From contig NZ_QPJM01000014.1 of NCBI RefSeq assembly GCF_003337575.1, positions 1 to 64,000 on the forward strand: DNA of 64,000 nt, given 5' to 3'. The notes beneath the pieces were generated by a model. It did not search any database. It saw only the letters and a list, made by a program, of their open reading frames with translations, and was not told the DNA's origin. The position numbers were made by a program, and so were the translations under genes. Every line of letters begins with the position of its first letter. The first letter of the stretch is position 1. The DNA is from Phyllobacterium bourgognense (GTDB lineage: Bacteria > Pseudomonadota > Alphaproteobacteria > Rhizobiales > Rhizobiaceae). Below, one piece after another: positions 39,139 through 48,665 of this stretch.

Positions 39139-39303
39139 CTAAGCGCGGCGTATGATACTGGCGATCAACGAGATCAGCAGCAGCGCCAGGAACACATAGA
39201 AAATGATCTGGGCGATGCCCGCCGAGGCACCGGCAATACCGCCGAACCCTAACGCTCCTGCCACAAGTGCTATGATCAGAAAAATTACAGCATAATAAAG
39301 CAT
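39139..39303 (-). CDS. DUF1328 small membrane protein (YtjA type)
   Basis: This 54-residue protein consists of two membrane helices. It begins [20 protein letters not shown], has the [20 protein letters not shown] motif of DUF1328, and ends IRRA. The ATG at 39303 has GGGAGATG upstream. A perfect EcfG-type promoter stands 30 bases before the start, so it should be induced by general stress. Function is unknown; homologues are common stress-linked small membrane proteins. Confidence 0.9.
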
Positions 39304-39379: not shown

Positions 39380-40174
39380 CTATGCTTTGGCTTTGCTGCT
39401 TTCTTTGAAGAACAGTGCCTGGGTGATTAATGCCTTCACCATATCAGGGTTGAACGGTTTGGTGACAAGGAATGTGGGTTCCGGCCGTTCTCCTGTCAGC
39501 AACCTTTCGGGGAAGGCGGTGATGAAAATAACGGGAACGGCATCCTGGCTGAGAATGTTGTTCACCGCGTCGATACCGGAGCTTCCGTCTGCAAGCTGGA
39601 TATCTGCCAGAATCATGCTCGGATGGGTGGCGGAGTAAATCTTGAGCGCCTCGTCGCGCGTGCGCGCAATGCCGACTACGCGGTGCCCGAGCGTCTGGAC
39701 CATGTGCTCGATATCCATGGCGATCAAAGGTTCGTCCTCAATAATCAGAATGTCGGTTGCGATCTGTTTCGAAATGCCGACGGATGCTTCATCCAACAGC
39801 CCGTAAAGTTCGCTATCCGTCACTTCTAGAATTTCCATCGTCTCTGACTGGCTGAAACCTTCAAGGCTGATCAGCAGGAAGGCCTGGCGGGCTTTCGGCG
39901 CGATGGCAGTAAGGTTGGCCGCTGCGTGTCGCTCCCAGCCGAACTCGGATTTCAGTTCGAGAGGCCGGACATTGACGGAGTTGAAATGTTTGATCAGCAG
40001 CTTGTAGAGGCTAGCACGATCGGAGCCTGCTTGAGGGAAAAGGGAAACGTCGGTGATGAGAATTTCAAGCGTCGCCGCAACATAGGCATCGCCGGAAGAT
40101 TGCGAGCCGGTGATAGCGCGAGCGAAACGGCGAAGATATGGCAGATGAGGGGCTATCCGGGTGGACAATGACAT
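39380..40174 (-). CDS. phyR: general stress response regulator PhyR
   Basis: This 264-residue protein joins an N-terminal sigma-factor-like domain (about 1-135) to a C-terminal receiver (about 140-260). The phosphoacceptor is Asp191 in MILADIQLADG, with acidic pair Glu146-Asp147 and Lys239 in VTKPF. When phosphorylated, the sigma-like domain binds NepR and frees EcfG. The ATG at 40174 gives the typical start MSLSTRIAPHLPYLRRFARA. It is divergent from nepR-ecfG. Confidence 0.96.
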   Translation of the reverse strand: MSLSTRIAPHLPYLRRFARAITGSQSSGDAYVAATLEILITDVSLFPQAGSDRASLYKLLIKHFNSVNVRPLELKSEFGWERHAAANLTAIAPKARQAFLLISLEGFSQSETMEILEVTDSELYGLLDEASVGISKQIATDILIIEDEPLIAMDIEHMVQTLGHRVVGIARTRDEALKIYSATHPSMILADIQLADGSSGIDAVNNILSQDAVPVIFITAFPERLLTGERPEPTFLVTKPFNPDMVKALITQALFFKESSKAKA

Positions 40175-40228
40175 TATAGTGATTTCCCTGTTTCGGGTGG
40201 GGTACTGAGGCGTGGTGAGTTCCTTCCT

Positions 40229-40255
40229 GAAACACTTTCGCAAAAAAAAAGTTCC
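40229..40255 (-). promoter_or_regulatory. EcfG-type promoter of phyR
   Basis: On the minus strand GGAAC (40255-40251) is followed by 16 bases and TGTT, keeping the GTT core of the -10 (40233 and neighbours). The -35 forms an inverted repeat with a second GGAAC at 40263-40267 facing nepR (AAGTTCC and GGAACTT). The nepR-side -35 lacks a good CGTT at the right distance. Confidence 0.6.
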
Positions 40256-40359: not shown

Positions 40360-40563
40360 ATGAACGCCAAAAAGAATTCTATTGACGCTCCTGAAAAGGT
40401 GCGAGTTCGTCGCCGCGACATCAAGAATGCTGAAACAGAAATTGGTCTGAAGTTACGCGCGCTTTACGCATCGGTGCAGGAGGAAGAAATACCGGCTCGT
40501 TTTCTCGATCTTCTTGAAAAGCTTGATGAGGCTGAACGCAATCATACGCAATCATCCAAATAA
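40360..40563 (+). CDS. nepR: anti-sigma factor NepR
   Basis: This 67-residue protein binds and silences EcfG until phosphorylated PhyR takes it away. The two conserved helices are visible: IGLKLRALYASVQEEEIP and ARFLDLLEKLDEAER. The ATG at 40360 gives a normal length. It lies 11 bases before ecfG, so the two are cotranscribed and probably made in balance. Confidence 0.93.
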   Translation: MNAKKNSIDAPEKVRVRRRDIKNAETEIGLKLRALYASVQEEEIPARFLDLLEKLDEAERNHTQSSK

Positions 40564-40574
40564 CAGGCTGTTGA

Positions 40575-41126
40575 ATGGTACATGAATCTGCCGACTTCAA
40601 GAGAGATTTGATTGCTGCCTTGCCGAAACTGCGAGCATTTGCAGTGTCACTGATCGGTAATCCGGACAGGGCGGATGACCTTGTGCAGGATACGATTATG
40701 AAAGCATGGGCCAAACAGGATTCGTTCGAGCCCGGCACCAATATCAAGGCTTGGCTGTTTACGATCTTACGCAACGAATTTTACAGTCAGATGCGCAAGC
40801 GCGGGCGTGAAGTCCAGGATTCCGATGGGATATTTACGGAGCAGTTGTCCGTTCATCCGGCACAATACGGCTCGCTTGACCTGCAGGATTTTCGCAAGGC
40901 GCTCGAAAAACTGCCCGACGATCAGCGCGAGGCGATCATACTGGTCGGCGCTTCGGGCTTTTCCTACGAGGAGGCTGCCGAGATCTGCGAGTGCGCCGTC
41001 GGAACGATCAAAAGCCGCGTGAGTCGCGCCAGAACTCGTCTGCAGGAATTGCTCGAGATTCAGGGAGAAGTGGACTACGGTCCTGATTCGATTGCGACGC
41101 AAGTCACCTCAAACAAGTTCGCCTGA
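40575..41126 (+). CDS. ecfG: general stress sigma factor EcfG
   Basis: This 183-residue ECF sigma factor of the ECF15 group has region 2 in LRAFAVSLIGNPDRADDLVQ through TNIKAWLFTILRNEFYSQMR and region 4 in LEKLPDDQREAIILVGASG, with EEAAEICECAVGTIKSRVSR contacting the -35. It directs RNA polymerase to GGAAC-N16/17-CGTT promoters, many of which are found around this gene. It forms a unit with nepR and is followed by a CHASE3 kinase gene. Confidence 0.95.
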   Translation: MVHESADFKRDLIAALPKLRAFAVSLIGNPDRADDLVQDTIMKAWAKQDSFEPGTNIKAWLFTILRNEFYSQMRKRGREVQDSDGIFTEQLSVHPAQYGSLDLQDFRKALEKLPDDQREAIILVGASGFSYEEAAEICECAVGTIKSRVSRARTRLQELLEIQGEVDYGPDSIATQVTSNKFA

Positions 41127-42731: not shown

Positions 42732-42953
42732 TCACAGCGTTGCCGCACCTGTTTCCGGTTTTTCGGCGTTCAACTGGTCAAGGGCAAGTTCGATATCCCG
42801 CAAATTTCGCGTCACACCATCATCGGGATCCATACCACTTTCTGTGGCTGCTCGCTGTAGTCCCCGAGCCTCGCTCAACAGTTCTTCCAGTTTGGCGATC
42901 TTCTGCACCCTGCTCAGGCTTTCGTCAGAAAGAATGTCATTCGCTTCAAGCAT
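42732..42953 (-). CDS. small hypothetical protein under EcfG-type promoter
   Basis: This 73-residue acidic, mostly helical protein begins MLEANDILSDESLSRVQK. A strong ribosome binding site (AAGGAGG, six bases upstream) and a perfect EcfG-type promoter support it as a real gene. A helix-rich segment with heptad character (KIAKLEELLSEARGLQRAA) could form a coiled coil. No family was recognised. It ends nine bases from the convergent kinase gene. Confidence 0.75.
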   Translation of the reverse strand: MLEANDILSDESLSRVQKIAKLEELLSEARGLQRAATESGMDPDDGVTRNLRDIELALDQLNAEKPETGAATL

Positions 42954-42980: not shown

Positions 42981-43005
42981 AACGAAGGTGCTGCATAAAT
43001 GTTCC
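42981..43005 (-). promoter_or_regulatory. perfect EcfG-type promoter (minus)
   Basis: GGAAC (43005-43001), 16 bases and CGTT (42984-42981) read on the minus strand towards the 73-residue protein gene, whose ATG is 28 bases downstream. It is back to back with another perfect site on the plus strand, six bases apart. Confidence 0.85.
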
Positions 43006-43011
43006 GATCAA

Positions 43012-43036
43012 GGAACAAAGGCCAAAGGGTTGCGTT
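43012..43036 (+). promoter_or_regulatory. perfect EcfG-type promoter (plus)
   Basis: GGAAC (43012-43016), 16 bases and CGTT (43033-43036) read towards the GAF/PAS histidine kinase gene at 43096. The kinase is therefore probably a member of the stress regulon as well as an input to it, giving positive feedback. Confidence 0.85.
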
Positions 43037-43095
43037 CTTGAGGAAGCTGAATAGGTGGGTATGAGTAGGGTGGCCATGCGTGCCATCATGTGGAT

Positions 43096-44622
43096 ATGAG
43101 ATCGGAAAACATTTCAGAAAGCACGTTAGAATTTCTGTCGGGGTCGTCGCGTCGTGATGTTCTTTCGAGTTTGAGAACGCTTGAAATTCGCGAACGTGAC
43201 AGTGAACTTCATTGTTTGACGGAACTCGCACTGTCCATGTCCAACAGCAGAGGCGCACAGATCACGCTTGTGGATGAGAAAAGAAGCCGTGTCCTGTCCT
43301 CTGCCGGCCGTCTTGGTATAGCCAACATCTGGGCTGTTGAAGCCAGTTCACTGGCCGCACCTGACAGGAGTTGCCTGATCATACTGGACGCTGCCGAGGA
43401 TGTGCGCTACTCCGAAATCGATGCTGTAACCCATGGGCCAAATCTTCGTTTCCTGGCCGTTGCACCGATCTGTGTCTCCGACGAATGCATTGGAGCTCTC
43501 AGTGTCCTGTCAGACGAGCCGCGAACGGAATTCGCTTCAATCCAGCAAGAGCAACTCATGCATCTGGCAAGACTTGCCGGTTCGTTTATCACGCTCAAAC
43601 GAGAATTCCGCACGGGAACCGATGCCGTGGCAAGGATGCATCAGGATGAAGATCGTAATTCCATGGCACTTGAGGTCGGCAATGTCGGCAGTTGGGTATG
43701 GGATCTGCGCACGGGCAAGTTCACCGGCAACAGGATGGCCTATTCCATGCTTGACCTTAGTCCCGATCATCCTGTCAGCGGCGAAGACGTCTTCAGAGCA
43801 ATGCACCCAGACGATTTTCCAAGGATGAAATCAGCCTTCACACGCGCACTCATCAACAATCAGGATTATGTCGGAGAATTCCGCGCTGCGTCATCAGGTC
43901 AATGGCTTCTAGGGCGCGGCCGTATTTTCGAACGCGATGCCCAAGGGAGACCGGTGGTTGCCGTTGGTGTCAATATTGATATTACGGACACAAAGAAGGC
44001 TGCCGAAAAGACGCGGCTTTTGCTGCGCGAGTTGAACCACCGTGTCAAAAACACCTTGGCGATGTTGCAATCACTGGCACGGCAGACGCTCAATCGAACG
44101 TCCGATCCAGCCGAGTTCATGGAAGCGTTTTCGGGGCGCCTTCGGGCCATTTCGGAAGCACACACATTGCTTTCTGATCGGGAATGGAGCGGCATCAGCC
44201 TAGTCGATCTAATTGCCAAGCAAGTGGAGCCTTATGCGGGTTTTGATCCTCGGCAAATCGAACTTTCCGGAGAGGACATGGTGCTGCCGCCGGACCACGC
44301 GCTCGGGCTTGGCATTGCGCTGCACGAGCTTGCGACCAATGCAGCGCGACATGGGGCCCTTTCCGTCGCCGACGGTCGTGTGCGGGTCTCATGGCAGATA
44401 GAGCCCGGTCTCGATGAGTCCCGCGTTACAATCCACTGGGTCGAATCCAACGGTCCAAGAGTGCTGCCTCCGGAAGTGCGAGGGCTTGGTGAAAGACTGA
44501 TCGAGCGCAGCCTTGATAAGGTTCTGTCGAGCAGCGTCAGGTTAAGCTATCCCGAAACTGGTATGGAGGCGTTGATTTCCATGCCAATCCGCGATCATTC
44601 AAATATCCTTGCCCAGAGATGA
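43096..44622 (+). CDS. GAF-PAS HWE-family sensor histidine kinase
   Basis: This soluble kinase of about 508 residues has an N-terminal GAF-like domain (about 25-180), a PAS domain with PAC (about 195-305, ending VGVNIDITDTKKA) and an HWE kinase core. The phosphoacceptor is His315 in LRELNHRVKNTLAMLQSLA, and the ATPase domain has ALHELATNAARHGAL and HWVESNGP. HWE kinases are typical partners of PhyR-type systems. The start could be GTG 43090 or ATG 43096. The 3' end overlaps the convergent holin-like gene by 24 bases. Confidence 0.88.
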   Translation: MRSENISESTLEFLSGSSRRDVLSSLRTLEIRERDSELHCLTELALSMSNSRGAQITLVDEKRSRVLSSAGRLGIANIWAVEASSLAAPDRSCLIILDAAEDVRYSEIDAVTHGPNLRFLAVAPICVSDECIGALSVLSDEPRTEFASIQQEQLMHLARLAGSFITLKREFRTGTDAVARMHQDEDRNSMALEVGNVGSWVWDLRTGKFTGNRMAYSMLDLSPDHPVSGEDVFRAMHPDDFPRMKSAFTRALINNQDYVGEFRAASSGQWLLGRGRIFERDAQGRPVVAVGVNIDITDTKKAAEKTRLLLRELNHRVKNTLAMLQSLARQTLNRTSDPAEFMEAFSGRLRAISEAHTLLSDREWSGISLVDLIAKQVEPYAGFDPRQIELSGEDMVLPPDHALGLGIALHELATNAARHGALSVADGRVRVSWQIEPGLDESRVTIHWVESNGPRVLPPEVRGLGERLIERSLDKVLSSSVRLSYPETGMEALISMPIRDHSNILAQR

Positions 44623-46001: not shown

Positions 46002-47969
46002 ATGCCTTCTGAAGAAGCCGGGGGGACATCGCGTGCCGTCGAACGGGTAACCCAACGATCGATCTATACACCTGTTTCGGCGAATGCGGCGAATCGGTTT
46101 CCACCGGTTATTGTCGCGATTGCCGTTGTCGCAGCGCTTTATTTTGCCCGCGACATTTTCGTGCCATTGGCACTGGCTTTGCTCTTGACCTTTGCGCTGT
46201 CACCACTGGTCACCCGCCTGCACCGTTCGGGTGTGCCGAAGGGTGTTGCTGTATTGAGTGTTGTTACAACGGCGTTTCTTGTGATCTTCATTTTCGTCAG
46301 CATCGTTGCGAGTCAGCTCACTGTGCTGGCGCAAAACCTGCCAAGCTATCAATACAATATCGAGACGAAGATTCGCACGATCAAGGACGCGCAGTCGGGC
46401 AACAGTATTTTTGATCGGGGAGCACGCATGTTCAAACGCTTCAGCGAGGAAATTGGTCGGTCGGACGAAGTGGAACGTTTTGAAAGCGATAACCGAGCAG
46501 CGACCAAACCAGACCCGGCGCGACAGCCTCCCCAAAATGTTGCACCGCCTGCCCCTCTACCACCCCTGCGCGGAACAGATCCCAACAAACCCGTACCTGT
46601 GGAGATCCGCAATCCACCACCAGATCCCTTAAGTCTGCTACAGACCTTTGCCGGACCGTTAATCCAACCCTTGGCGACGATTGGCATTGTCATTGTGGTG
46701 GTCATTTTCATGCTTATGCGGCGTGAAGATTTGCGCGACCGTTTCATAAAGTTGGTGGGAGCCAGCGATATTCACCGAACGACAACTGCTCTGCATGATG
46801 CCGGCAAGCGCGTCGGTCAATATTTGCTGATGCAGCTGATCATCAATATCAGCTTCGGTGTGCCCATCGGGATCGGGCTGTGGTTCATTGGTATTCCCAA
46901 CCCGATGCTGTGGGGCATGCTGGCGATCGTTCTCCGTTTTGTGCCCTATATAGGACCAATCATCGCAGCTGCGTTTCCACTTATACTGTCGCTGGCGGTC
47001 GATCCGGGTTGGATGACGCTCTTCTGGACGGCCGCATTGTTCATCGTGCTGGAGCTCATCAGCAACAATATCATGGAGCCGCTTCTCTACGGTTCCAAGA
47101 CCGGTCTCTCCCCCGTTGCGATTCTGATGGCCGCCATTGTCTGGACCTGGATCTGGGGGCCGATCGGATTGATCCTGTCGACACCGCTCACCGTGTGTCT
47201 TGTCGTTCTTGGAAGACATGTGCCGAAGTTCGAGTTTCTCGATGTTCTTCTCGGCAATGAGCCGGTGCTCCTTCCGCCCCAACAGCTATATCAACGGCTG
47301 TTATCTGGCGATCCGGATGAAGCAACAGAGAAAGCAGAGGAATATTTGCAGTCAGCGACCGTCATGGATTACTACGCTTCGGTGGCCATCCCTGCGCTGC
47401 TGCTCGCCGAACACGATCGAGGCCGGGGTGTGCTTGACGAGCCGAGGCGCAATCGTGTGGCGCAAAGCATGATCCTGCTCGTCGAAAACCTTTCAGAATA
47501 CCATGATGTTGAAGACGAAGAAGTGAAGGAAGCCGAGGCGGAAGCCAAAGGCAAAAAGGCTGGCGCTGACGAAAAAAAGTCCAAAATTGAAAAGTCGAAA
47601 ACGATTGTCTCTGCAGGTGGACGCGGCGACCTCGATGATGCCGCAGCGGTTGTTCTAGGCGATATTCTGGAGCGCAAGGACTTTGATATTCGAGATATTT
47701 CCCATGACGAGCTTGAGGCGGTCAATATAGGCAAGCTTGATCTTAGTAACGTCAGCACCATCTGCATAAGCTATCTCAACACGTCTTCGGTCGCTCACGC
47801 ACGATATCTCGTCCGCCGCATAAGGCGGCGAAACGCGCGTATACAGATCGTTATCGGATTCTGGGCGGAAAACGCGGATGACATCGACGGTGAGAAGATC
47901 GTTGGATCAACACGCAATTGTTTTTTTGTATCGTCGATTGAAGCGATGATTCAACAGGTTTGCGAGTGA
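46002..47969 (+). CDS. AI-2E family transporter with large C-terminal cytosolic extension
   Basis: This 655-residue protein is far longer than typical AI-2E permeases (about 350-400). Residues about 30-410 form the membrane part, with conserved segments RFVPYIGPIIAAAFP, FIVLELISNNIMEPLLYG and WTWIWGPIGLILSTPLTV. A periplasmic or cytosolic Pro-rich insert lies near 150-215. Residues about 420-655 are soluble: a helical part, a charged linker (EAEAEAKGKKAGADEKKSK) and an alpha/beta segment (STICISYLNTSSVAHARYL, then IQIVIGFW) resembling a ligand-binding fold. The transported substrate is unknown. Confidence 0.83.
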   Translation: MPSEEAGGTSRAVERVTQRSIYTPVSANAANRFPPVIVAIAVVAALYFARDIFVPLALALLLTFALSPLVTRLHRSGVPKGVAVLSVVTTAFLVIFIFVSIVASQLTVLAQNLPSYQYNIETKIRTIKDAQSGNSIFDRGARMFKRFSEEIGRSDEVERFESDNRAATKPDPARQPPQNVAPPAPLPPLRGTDPNKPVPVEIRNPPPDPLSLLQTFAGPLIQPLATIGIVIVVVIFMLMRREDLRDRFIKLVGASDIHRTTTALHDAGKRVGQYLLMQLIINISFGVPIGIGLWFIGIPNPMLWGMLAIVLRFVPYIGPIIAAAFPLILSLAVDPGWMTLFWTAALFIVLELISNNIMEPLLYGSKTGLSPVAILMAAIVWTWIWGPIGLILSTPLTVCLVVLGRHVPKFEFLDVLLGNEPVLLPPQQLYQRLLSGDPDEATEKAEEYLQSATVMDYYASVAIPALLLAEHDRGRGVLDEPRRNRVAQSMILLVENLSEYHDVEDEEVKEAEAEAKGKKAGADEKKSKIEKSKTIVSAGGRGDLDDAAAVVLGDILERKDFDIRDISHDELEAVNIGKLDLSNVSTICISYLNTSSVAHARYLVRRIRRRNARIQIVIGFWAENADDIDGEKIVGSTRNCFFVSSIEAMIQQVCE

Positions 47970-48137
47970 GCGCCTCCAGGGATTCTCACGGATTCCAAGT
48001 CGTAAACTCATAAAATCTGATGGAATGGCGGACGGTTCGGCGGAGGGAAGACCCCGCCTTCCCGGTTCTCCTCGCATCGTCTTGCCGTTTCAGGCGCCAT
48101 TTTCACCAGATTTACGCGTTTACGACCAAGCTTTCGC

Positions 48138-48163
48138 GGAACCAAGAGCGAGCTGTCTACGTT
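48138..48163 (+). promoter_or_regulatory. near-perfect EcfG-type promoter with no coding gene downstream
   Basis: GGAAC (48138-48142), 17 bases and CGTT (48160-48163) match the EcfG consensus with the alternative spacer. No open frame with a ribosome site starts in the next 180 bases. Transcription should start near 48170 and enter a structured region. Confidence 0.7.
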
Positions 48164-48170
48164 TCCATCC

Positions 48171-48263
48171 AGCTGATCGAGCTTCGATCGGTAACTAGAG
48201 ACCCGGTGCCTGTTCCCCCGTGGGCGCCGGGTCGTTGGCTACCGCAATAAAATTATTATTTTT
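48171..48263 (+). ncRNA. candidate general-stress small RNA
   Basis: The predicted transcript starts about seven bases after the EcfG-type -10. A first hairpin pairs CTGATCGA (48173-48180) with TCGATCGG (48184-48191). The second is an 11-base-pair stem: GACCCGGTGCC (48200-48210) with GGCGCCGGGTC (48223-48233), one G-U pair, and a 12-base loop TGTTCCCCCGTG. A T-rich stretch follows (48251-48263). The C-rich loop is suited to pairing with Shine-Dalgarno sequences. A stress-sigma-controlled sRNA with a C-rich loop (GsrN) is known in Caulobacter; homology is not claimed. The preceding part of this 380-base gene-free stretch (47970-48137) shows only a small hairpin near 48045-48065. Confidence 0.5.
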
Positions 48264-48289
48264 CAAATGCTTGTAAAGTTTGAACCAGC

Positions 48290-48314
48290 GGAACAAACGC
48301 AAAACCCGGCCGCT
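48290..48314 (+). promoter_or_regulatory. EcfG-type promoter of the CsbD-like gene
   Basis: GGAAC (48290-48294), 16 bases and CGCT (48311-48314), one mismatch from CGTT. The CsbD-like ATG is 36 bases downstream. Confidence 0.65.
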
Positions 48315-48349
48315 TAATTCAGGTAGATGAACGCTTTAAGGAGTTCCTG

Positions 48350-48541
48350 ATGGGTAGTACCACCGATAAACTTTCCGGCGCGGCTAACAAGGCTGCTGGC
48401 AATGTCAGGCAGGCTGCCGGCAAGGCAACCGGATCGAAGGAAATGCAGGCGAAGGGCAAAATGCAGGAAATGAAAGGCGAAGCACAGCAGGCCAAGGGAA
48501 AAGCGAAGGATGCTGTGAAAAAGGTTGTCGATAAGGCCTGA
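48350..48541 (+). CDS. CsbD family stress protein
   Basis: This 63-residue, highly charged, Lys/Ala/Gly-rich protein has the repeated pattern KLSGAANKAAGNVRQAAGKA and KGKMQEMKGEAQQAKGKAKD. This is typical of CsbD-like proteins, which are abundant in stationary phase under stress sigma factors in many bacteria. AAGGAG precedes the ATG. The EcfG-type promoter at 48290 supports stress control. Molecular function is unknown. Confidence 0.92.
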   Translation: MGSTTDKLSGAANKAAGNVRQAAGKATGSKEMQAKGKMQEMKGEAQQAKGKAKDAVKKVVDKA

Positions 48542-48665
48542 TCGCCTTTGTCACCTCGAATTTTAGCTGGTCCCTTGTCGGGGCCGGTTGCTTTTCGTGC
48601 CAGAGTCTGTCGTGCTGTGTTTTTTAGACGAAATCAGACTTTCAAGCTTTAAGGGAAAACTGCCG

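Follow-up and report, generated by a model that had tools for sequence, protein, structure and literature searches.

The stretch between an AI-2E permease gene and csbD in Phyllobacterium bourgognense carries an EcfG-type promoter followed by two hairpins, which raises the question of whether it is an independent small RNA gene belonging to the general stress response, a displaced copy of a stress RNA of other genera, a leader of csbD, or a terminator or piece of a small protein gene. Phyllobacterium is a plant-associated bacterium, and the putative RNA adjoins its general stress response genes. In the literature examined, the mechanism of small RNAs under the stress sigma factor is known from one alphaproteobacterium, through GsrN, and expression from few others. 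We analysed a stretch of 64,000 nucleotides (the window), which is part of a 5.6-Mb genome and contains the following features:

39380-40243, minus strand: phyR, near ecfG (PhyR domain)
40360-40563, plus strand: nepR, adjoining ecfG (NepR domain)
40575-41126, plus strand: ecfG (Pfam Sigma70_r2/r4)
46002-47969, plus strand: AI-2E family transporter (permease) gene (Pfam AI-2E_transport), upstream neighbour of the RNA in 20/20 genomes
48138-48163, plus strand: EcfG-type promoter, GGAACCAA on the -35 side and CGTT on the -10 side, with a 17-base spacer after GGAAC
48170-48243, plus strand: proposed small RNA of about 65-100 nt, with a start near 48170 as judged by the promoter and an uncertain end
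48172-48192, plus strand: hairpin 1, nine consensus pairs, two-sided changes at 4/9 pairs, 94.2% of cells paired
48200-48233, plus strand: hairpin 2 with 13 pairs, resembling a terminator in some species, two-sided changes at 3/13 pairs, 9/13 invariant, 100% of cells paired
48213-48220, plus strand: C-rich loop UUCCCCCG with five consecutive C, proposed pairing seed
48244-48264, plus strand: AT-rich stretch with a T run, possible 3' end by its sequence, genus-wide identity only 42%
48290-48315, plus strand: second EcfG-type promoter, for csbD (GGAAC-N17-GCTT in the window), following the RNA in 20/20 genomes
48350-48541, plus strand: csbD (Pfam CsbD, E 4.8e-16)

Promoter, hairpins and their conservation

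The island comprises phyR, nepR, ecfG, a CHASE3-HisKA_2 kinase gene, an HWE kinase gene and the genes for a DUF883 protein, the AI-2E permease, CsbD and a transglutaminase-like protein. In all 20 Phyllobacterium genomes the RNA lies 7.3-9.7 kb downstream of ecfG with the permease gene directly upstream, and csbD follows on its 3' side in 19 of them; in the window, 168 bases separate the permease stop codon from the RNA element. A preliminary description of this DNA had placed the RNA inside the PhyR-EcfG island, upstream of csbD, behind a GGAAC-N17-CGTT promoter, and both the place and the promoter hold.

The promoter boxes lie at 48138-48142 (GGAAC) and 48160-48163 (CGTT), 17 bases apart. Taken by itself, such a motif is only moderately special: GGAAC-N16..19-CGTT is found seven times in the window, where 2.2 are expected, a count reached by one of 100 shuffles, and with this chance rate conservation is needed to decide. 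The pair GGAACCAA...CGTT precedes the RNA in 20/20 Phyllobacterium genomes, each box with 100% and the spacer with 47% mean pairwise identity. In such an alignment a variable spacer flanked by two invariant boxes is a promoter-type constraint, and control of the RNA by EcfG appears well supported at the sequence level. Elsewhere in the window, two divergent EcfG-type promoters (42981-43036) belong to a small gene (42732-42953, minus strand) and the HWE kinase gene (43090-44622, plus strand), and this divergent pair was found again at most Phyllobacterium loci.

Downstream of the promoter, the segment 48168-48263 folds with a minimum free energy of -41.2 kcal/mol (z -4.8; none of 200 shuffles equally stable), and the two hairpins announced in the preliminary description are present. 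Its five-C loop also stands, its stem of 11 base pairs does not: we count 13 pairs, including three G-U pairs, two of which adjoin the loop. The exposed loop UUCCCCCG is near-invariant and sits in the last hairpin; CCTGTTCCCCCGTGGG is exact in 19/20 Phyllobacterium genomes, the remaining one (G012) having CCTGTGCCCCCCGTGGG. An unpaired yet near-invariant loop is the pattern of a putative pairing seed. The 3' end had been called the weakest point, rightly so, as the T-rich stretch at about 48244-48264 abuts no stem. A consensus scan of 48000-48600 found no terminator at the RNA, the sole one lying after csbD (48564-48590). Five of the 20 species (L016-L020) have a terminator-like arrangement, with four or five T, including two that pair in the consensus stem, directly 3' of CCGGG, and there hairpin 2 may be the end of the RNA. 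Most other species, that of the window among them, have a shorter or displaced T run; in these remaining species the 3' end could possibly arise by processing or at a later stop.

Conservation was followed at several levels. A DNA search of 59 genomes found the element in every Phyllobacterium genome, the window genome plus its 19 congeners, and nowhere in the 39 genomes of other genera. The covariance model R1, built from the 19 sequences of alignment A1 (without L004, whose stretch is identical to that of L003), found one match per genome in 20/20 Phyllobacterium genomes (E 1.3e-12 to 1.1e-18), so that the RNA is single-copy throughout the genus. In a collection of 84,980 genomes, an exact 20-mer of the RNA occurred in 16 contigs, 14 of Phyllobacterium and two of isolates named 'Rhizobiales bacterium'. 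Mean pairwise identity across the 20 genomes was 0.28 upstream, 0.47 in the spacer, 0.49 in the leader, 0.69 in hairpin 1, 0.89 and 0.94 in the stem arms of hairpin 2, 0.99 in the loop, 0.40 in the tail, 0.42 downstream and 0.94 in the -35 box of csbD, with element borders shifted by one base relative to the coordinates listed above. Within the stems, 97.6% of cells are paired and 7/22 pairs show two-sided compensatory changes; the covariation score is 0.251, compared with 0.176 in shuffles, while sliding gives no more than 0.093, and species relatedness may lie behind part of this covariation.

No conserved reading frame crosses the element: no frame is free of stops across all 20 genomes, each of the three being interrupted in some species, and insertions or deletions of one or two bases occur. 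Conservation of stems and loop in related genomes with conserved flanking genes was one of the tests that the preliminary description had set, and both are kept in 20/20 Phyllobacterium genomes, with covariation and promoter-like constraint. Together the pattern of constraint looks like that of a small RNA gene, and we consider this locus to be probably a stand-alone gene for a trans-acting small RNA of the general stress response.

Known and putative stress RNAs of other genera

Rfam 15 gave no match at gathering score in the window, and its sub-threshold matches, the best being a microRNA model at E 0.023, were rejected as chance-level. A scan of 297 genomes of the family with R1 returned 24 matches at E<=0.01, of which five were strong and belonged to the five Phyllobacterium genomes in the set, while 19 were weak (at most 34 bits). 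One of these, L028, extends past a contig end. The other 18 were readable and were discarded, being mostly terminators or CCTCCTCCC-loop hairpins; a loose motif of GGAA type precedes two of the 18 (L029 and L037), whose 3-kb loci contained no phyR, ecfG or kinase match. Judged by sequence, the RNA is confined to Phyllobacterium. Locus L029 (G235:C2:163616-163702, minus strand), from another genus, deserves mention for a GGAACCAA promoter-like site followed by three C-rich-loop hairpins and a terminator, the final hairpin (GGCCCGGTGC...GCGCCGGGC) being similar to hairpin 2 of the Phyllobacterium RNA.

The kind of RNA is already known, since sigma-E2 promoter motifs precede 23 small RNAs of S. 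meliloti and microarrays supported this for eight intergenic regions (PMC3616915). In Caulobacter crescentus, GsrN pairs through a C-rich loop with G-rich sites in mRNAs, katG being a target that it activates (PMC5869019). Like GsrN (about 100 nt), the Phyllobacterium RNA is small, has a promoter of the general-stress sigma factor (EcfG/sigma-T) and exposes a C-rich loop; GsrN has this loop in its 5' part and is cleaved to a 5' isoform, whereas here it lies in the last hairpin. The likeness to GsrN drawn in the preliminary description is good for promoter and C-rich loop and fails for the position of the loop. This comparison is by description, R1 having been searched within the family only, and katG, the target of GsrN, is found in just 2/20 Phyllobacterium genomes.

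Nearer relatives offer a second comparison. ReC64 of Rhizobium etli is an EcfG1-dependent RNA of 88 nt, mapped by RACE, downstream of phyR-tcrY (PMC3892343), and Tien et al. proposed GsrN-like RNAs near the general stress response (GSR) loci of Rhizobiaceae, for which a C-rich loop is described (PMC5869019). Such RNAs share with ours the EcfG promoter, the GSR island, the short length and the C-rich loop; they differ in sequence and hairpin number, and they lie downstream of phyR and a kinase gene, whereas the Phyllobacterium RNA is found on the far side of ecfG, with the permease gene and csbD as its neighbours.

We compared 40 GSR loci from other genera. A script found 13 in which two or more CCCC runs come after a phyR-side EcfG-type promoter, and 12 were kept by eye, L124 being dropped as no terminator was visible; two more (L092 and L098), with GGAACCAAG promoters and variant -10 boxes, match the model R2, built from five phyR-side RNAs, giving a total of 14/40 loci. 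In the 12, promoter and ecfG are 1.4-3.1 kb apart and the RNAs show C-rich-loop hairpins; the phyR-side RNAs occupy the place of ReC64 and the GsrN-like RNAs. On the opposite strand of the phyR side, the 40 loci have many EcfG-type motifs, in which no C-loop RNA was seen by eye and which are likely mRNA starts only. The phyR-side RNAs resemble the Phyllobacterium RNA in the GGAAC promoter, the C-rich-loop hairpins and a terminator-like last hairpin, but those measured have two or three C-rich hairpins in 105-182 nt, the Phyllobacterium RNA having a single C-rich loop and a length of about 75 nt. Examples are L099:12625-12748(-) and L103:13061-13191(-), and the set extends to genera beyond the few species proposed in the available parts of PMC5869019 and PMC3892343.

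A competitor to an RNA of independent standing is that it is a true orthologue of these phyR-side RNAs, moved and shortened in Phyllobacterium. Promoter type, island and C-rich loops are common to both, the phyR-side RNA found at 14/40 loci elsewhere was not seen at that place in the window, and R1 matched one of these RNAs in 790 kb (E 0.0011; 26.8 bits in another search), inside the EcfG-driven RNA of L103. Set against this, R2 scores at best 14.5 bits on the Phyllobacterium RNA, unrelated terminator-like hairpins reach 34 bits with R1 (L027), and place and hairpin number are unlike. We regard common descent as conceivable but doubtful.

At E<=1e-4, R2 matched 18/151 family genomes (14/109 genera) and none of the three Phyllobacterium genomes in that list; since it is sensitive only to close kin, this silence counts for little. 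Within the genus, 22 weak matches at E<=1 were spread over 15/20 genomes, and the nine inspected contained no EcfG-driven C-loop RNA. Two of the matches (L132 and L138) have GGAAC about 160 nt upstream and were set aside, as they cover the end of a small open reading frame beside phyR (DUF1328 in the window) and its terminator. Four others (L127-L130, from Phyllobacterium G015, G014, G011 and G012) are CCTCCTCCC triple hairpins with no GGAAC promoter upstream, which we take to be CCTCCTCCC-loop RNAs of Rhizobiales; these share C-rich-loop hairpins with the Phyllobacterium RNA and differ in their three CCTCCTCCC loops and in the missing promoter. They make up a separate small RNA candidate. As for the DUF1328 gene of the window (39139-39303, minus strand), it has an EcfG-type promoter (39357-39333, minus strand) and is flanked by phyR and a membrane glycosyltransferase-like gene, at the site where other genera have the kinase gene and the C-loop RNA.

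A literature search, whose coverage left out most subscription papers, gave no description of a Phyllobacterium stress sRNA. Such RNAs are known in relatives, but the Phyllobacterium RNA appears to form a new family at an unusual location; the alignments and searches indicate that it is very probably a real small RNA gene family of the genus, outside Rfam and of a known kind. Its position raises the question of whether a stress-response island keeps a small RNA despite a change of place.

Relation to csbD and the permease gene

The RNA could also be the 5' leader of csbD, a long mRNA beginning at 48170 whose hairpins regulate csbD in cis as an attenuator or stability element. The gene lies on the same strand and starts about 140 nt 3' of the loop in most species, and read-through is possible because the terminator is weak in most of them. 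However, a second GGAAC promoter stands between the RNA and csbD in 20/20 genomes (strict CGTT as -10 box in 19, GCTT in the window), and a leader with its own downstream promoter needs no invariant loop. G019 retains promoter, stems and loop of the RNA though csbD is lost: the gene has shrunk to a three-codon frame (ATG GCT TGA), and the 20-kb stretch contains neither a csbD match nor a transglutaminase gene. With csbD having its own promoter and G019 an RNA without csbD, the RNA is not just a csbD leader, and we hold this explanation to be improbable. Outside the genus, csbD was present in 12/20 genomes with 15 matches; a single EcfG-type promoter lies within 450 nt of 11 of these, and in no case are there two in that distance; by sequence, five-C runs occur upstream of csbD in L210, L216 and L221, none of them behind a second GGAAC promoter.

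It is very improbable that the hairpins, despite lying 168 bases past the permease stop codon in a region crossed by open reading frames of 57 and 76 aa, are a mere terminator of the permease gene, which would require neither the invariant upstream promoter nor an invariant 8-nt loop, or a piece of an unrecognised small protein gene, against which stand the stops in each of three frames in some species and the indels of one or two bases.

Proposed action and candidate targets

Release of EcfG from NepR by PhyR under stress is established in other Alphaproteobacteria. If the locus is a stand-alone stress RNA gene, stress would act through PhyR to free EcfG from NepR, and EcfG would start transcription at the 48138 promoter. 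Once folded into its two hairpins, the RNA would expose the UUCCCCCG loop of hairpin 2 for pairing with one or several mRNAs at G-rich sites, in all likelihood ribosome-binding sites, and would alter the translation or stability of these mRNAs. By analogy with GsrN, pairing through the C-rich loop is the likely mode of action.

The target cannot be carried over from Caulobacter. A katG gene (PF00141) is absent from the window genome and present in only 2/20 Phyllobacterium genomes, which excludes it as conserved target, and any conserved target must therefore differ from that of GsrN. A genus-wide, single-copy, covarying RNA with a near-invariant loop, in mostly katG-free species, may offer a clean system for asking what a C-loop RNA does without its best-known target.

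Full 10-nt complements of the loop are not enriched in the window genome (five, the RNA's own site included, vs seven for the reversed pattern). Thirty full-complement sites were checked among the matches listed and yielded no candidate, nine being the RNA itself and the other 21 lacking related proteins. In the leaders of the island genes (20 loci) there was no consistent loop complement; that of the permease has GGGG in 13/20 genomes, the window not among them. Loop complements 3-11 bases before an ATG exceed the reversed pattern in 19/20 genomes (15 vs 6 in the window genome; 8 vs 9 in the exception, G017), an excess that G-rich ribosome-binding sites alone would produce.

The most recurrent site among the matches listed was CGGGGGAACCCATG, found in 18/20 genomes at the nuoJ start in each, which forms a 9-nt perfect complement of the loop. 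As a target, nuoJ is a weak candidate, because it was selected as the most recurrent match of a search, because CGGGGGAAC precedes nuoJ in 5/28 other genera as well, and because the site does not track the loop: it is lost in G010 and G011 despite an unchanged loop and kept in G012 with a changed one. Across 18/20 Phyllobacterium genomes (L255 plus 17 further loci) the ribosome-binding site of nuoJ, GGAAATCGGGGGAACCCATG, is itself nearly invariant, and it is partly shared outside.

We mention as a speculation, and a rather unlikely one, that Phyllobacterium swapped the phyR-side stress RNA for a compact RNA elsewhere, in which one hairpin would serve as both 3' end and seed loop, re-aimed from katG at different mRNAs, for instance that of the respiratory complex I gene nuoJ. 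Among the matches listed there were 24 further loci with a loop complement before an ATG, mostly short frames, and those that recurred belonged to a 102-aa protein (three genomes), a 77-aa protein (two) and an 81-aa frame (two).
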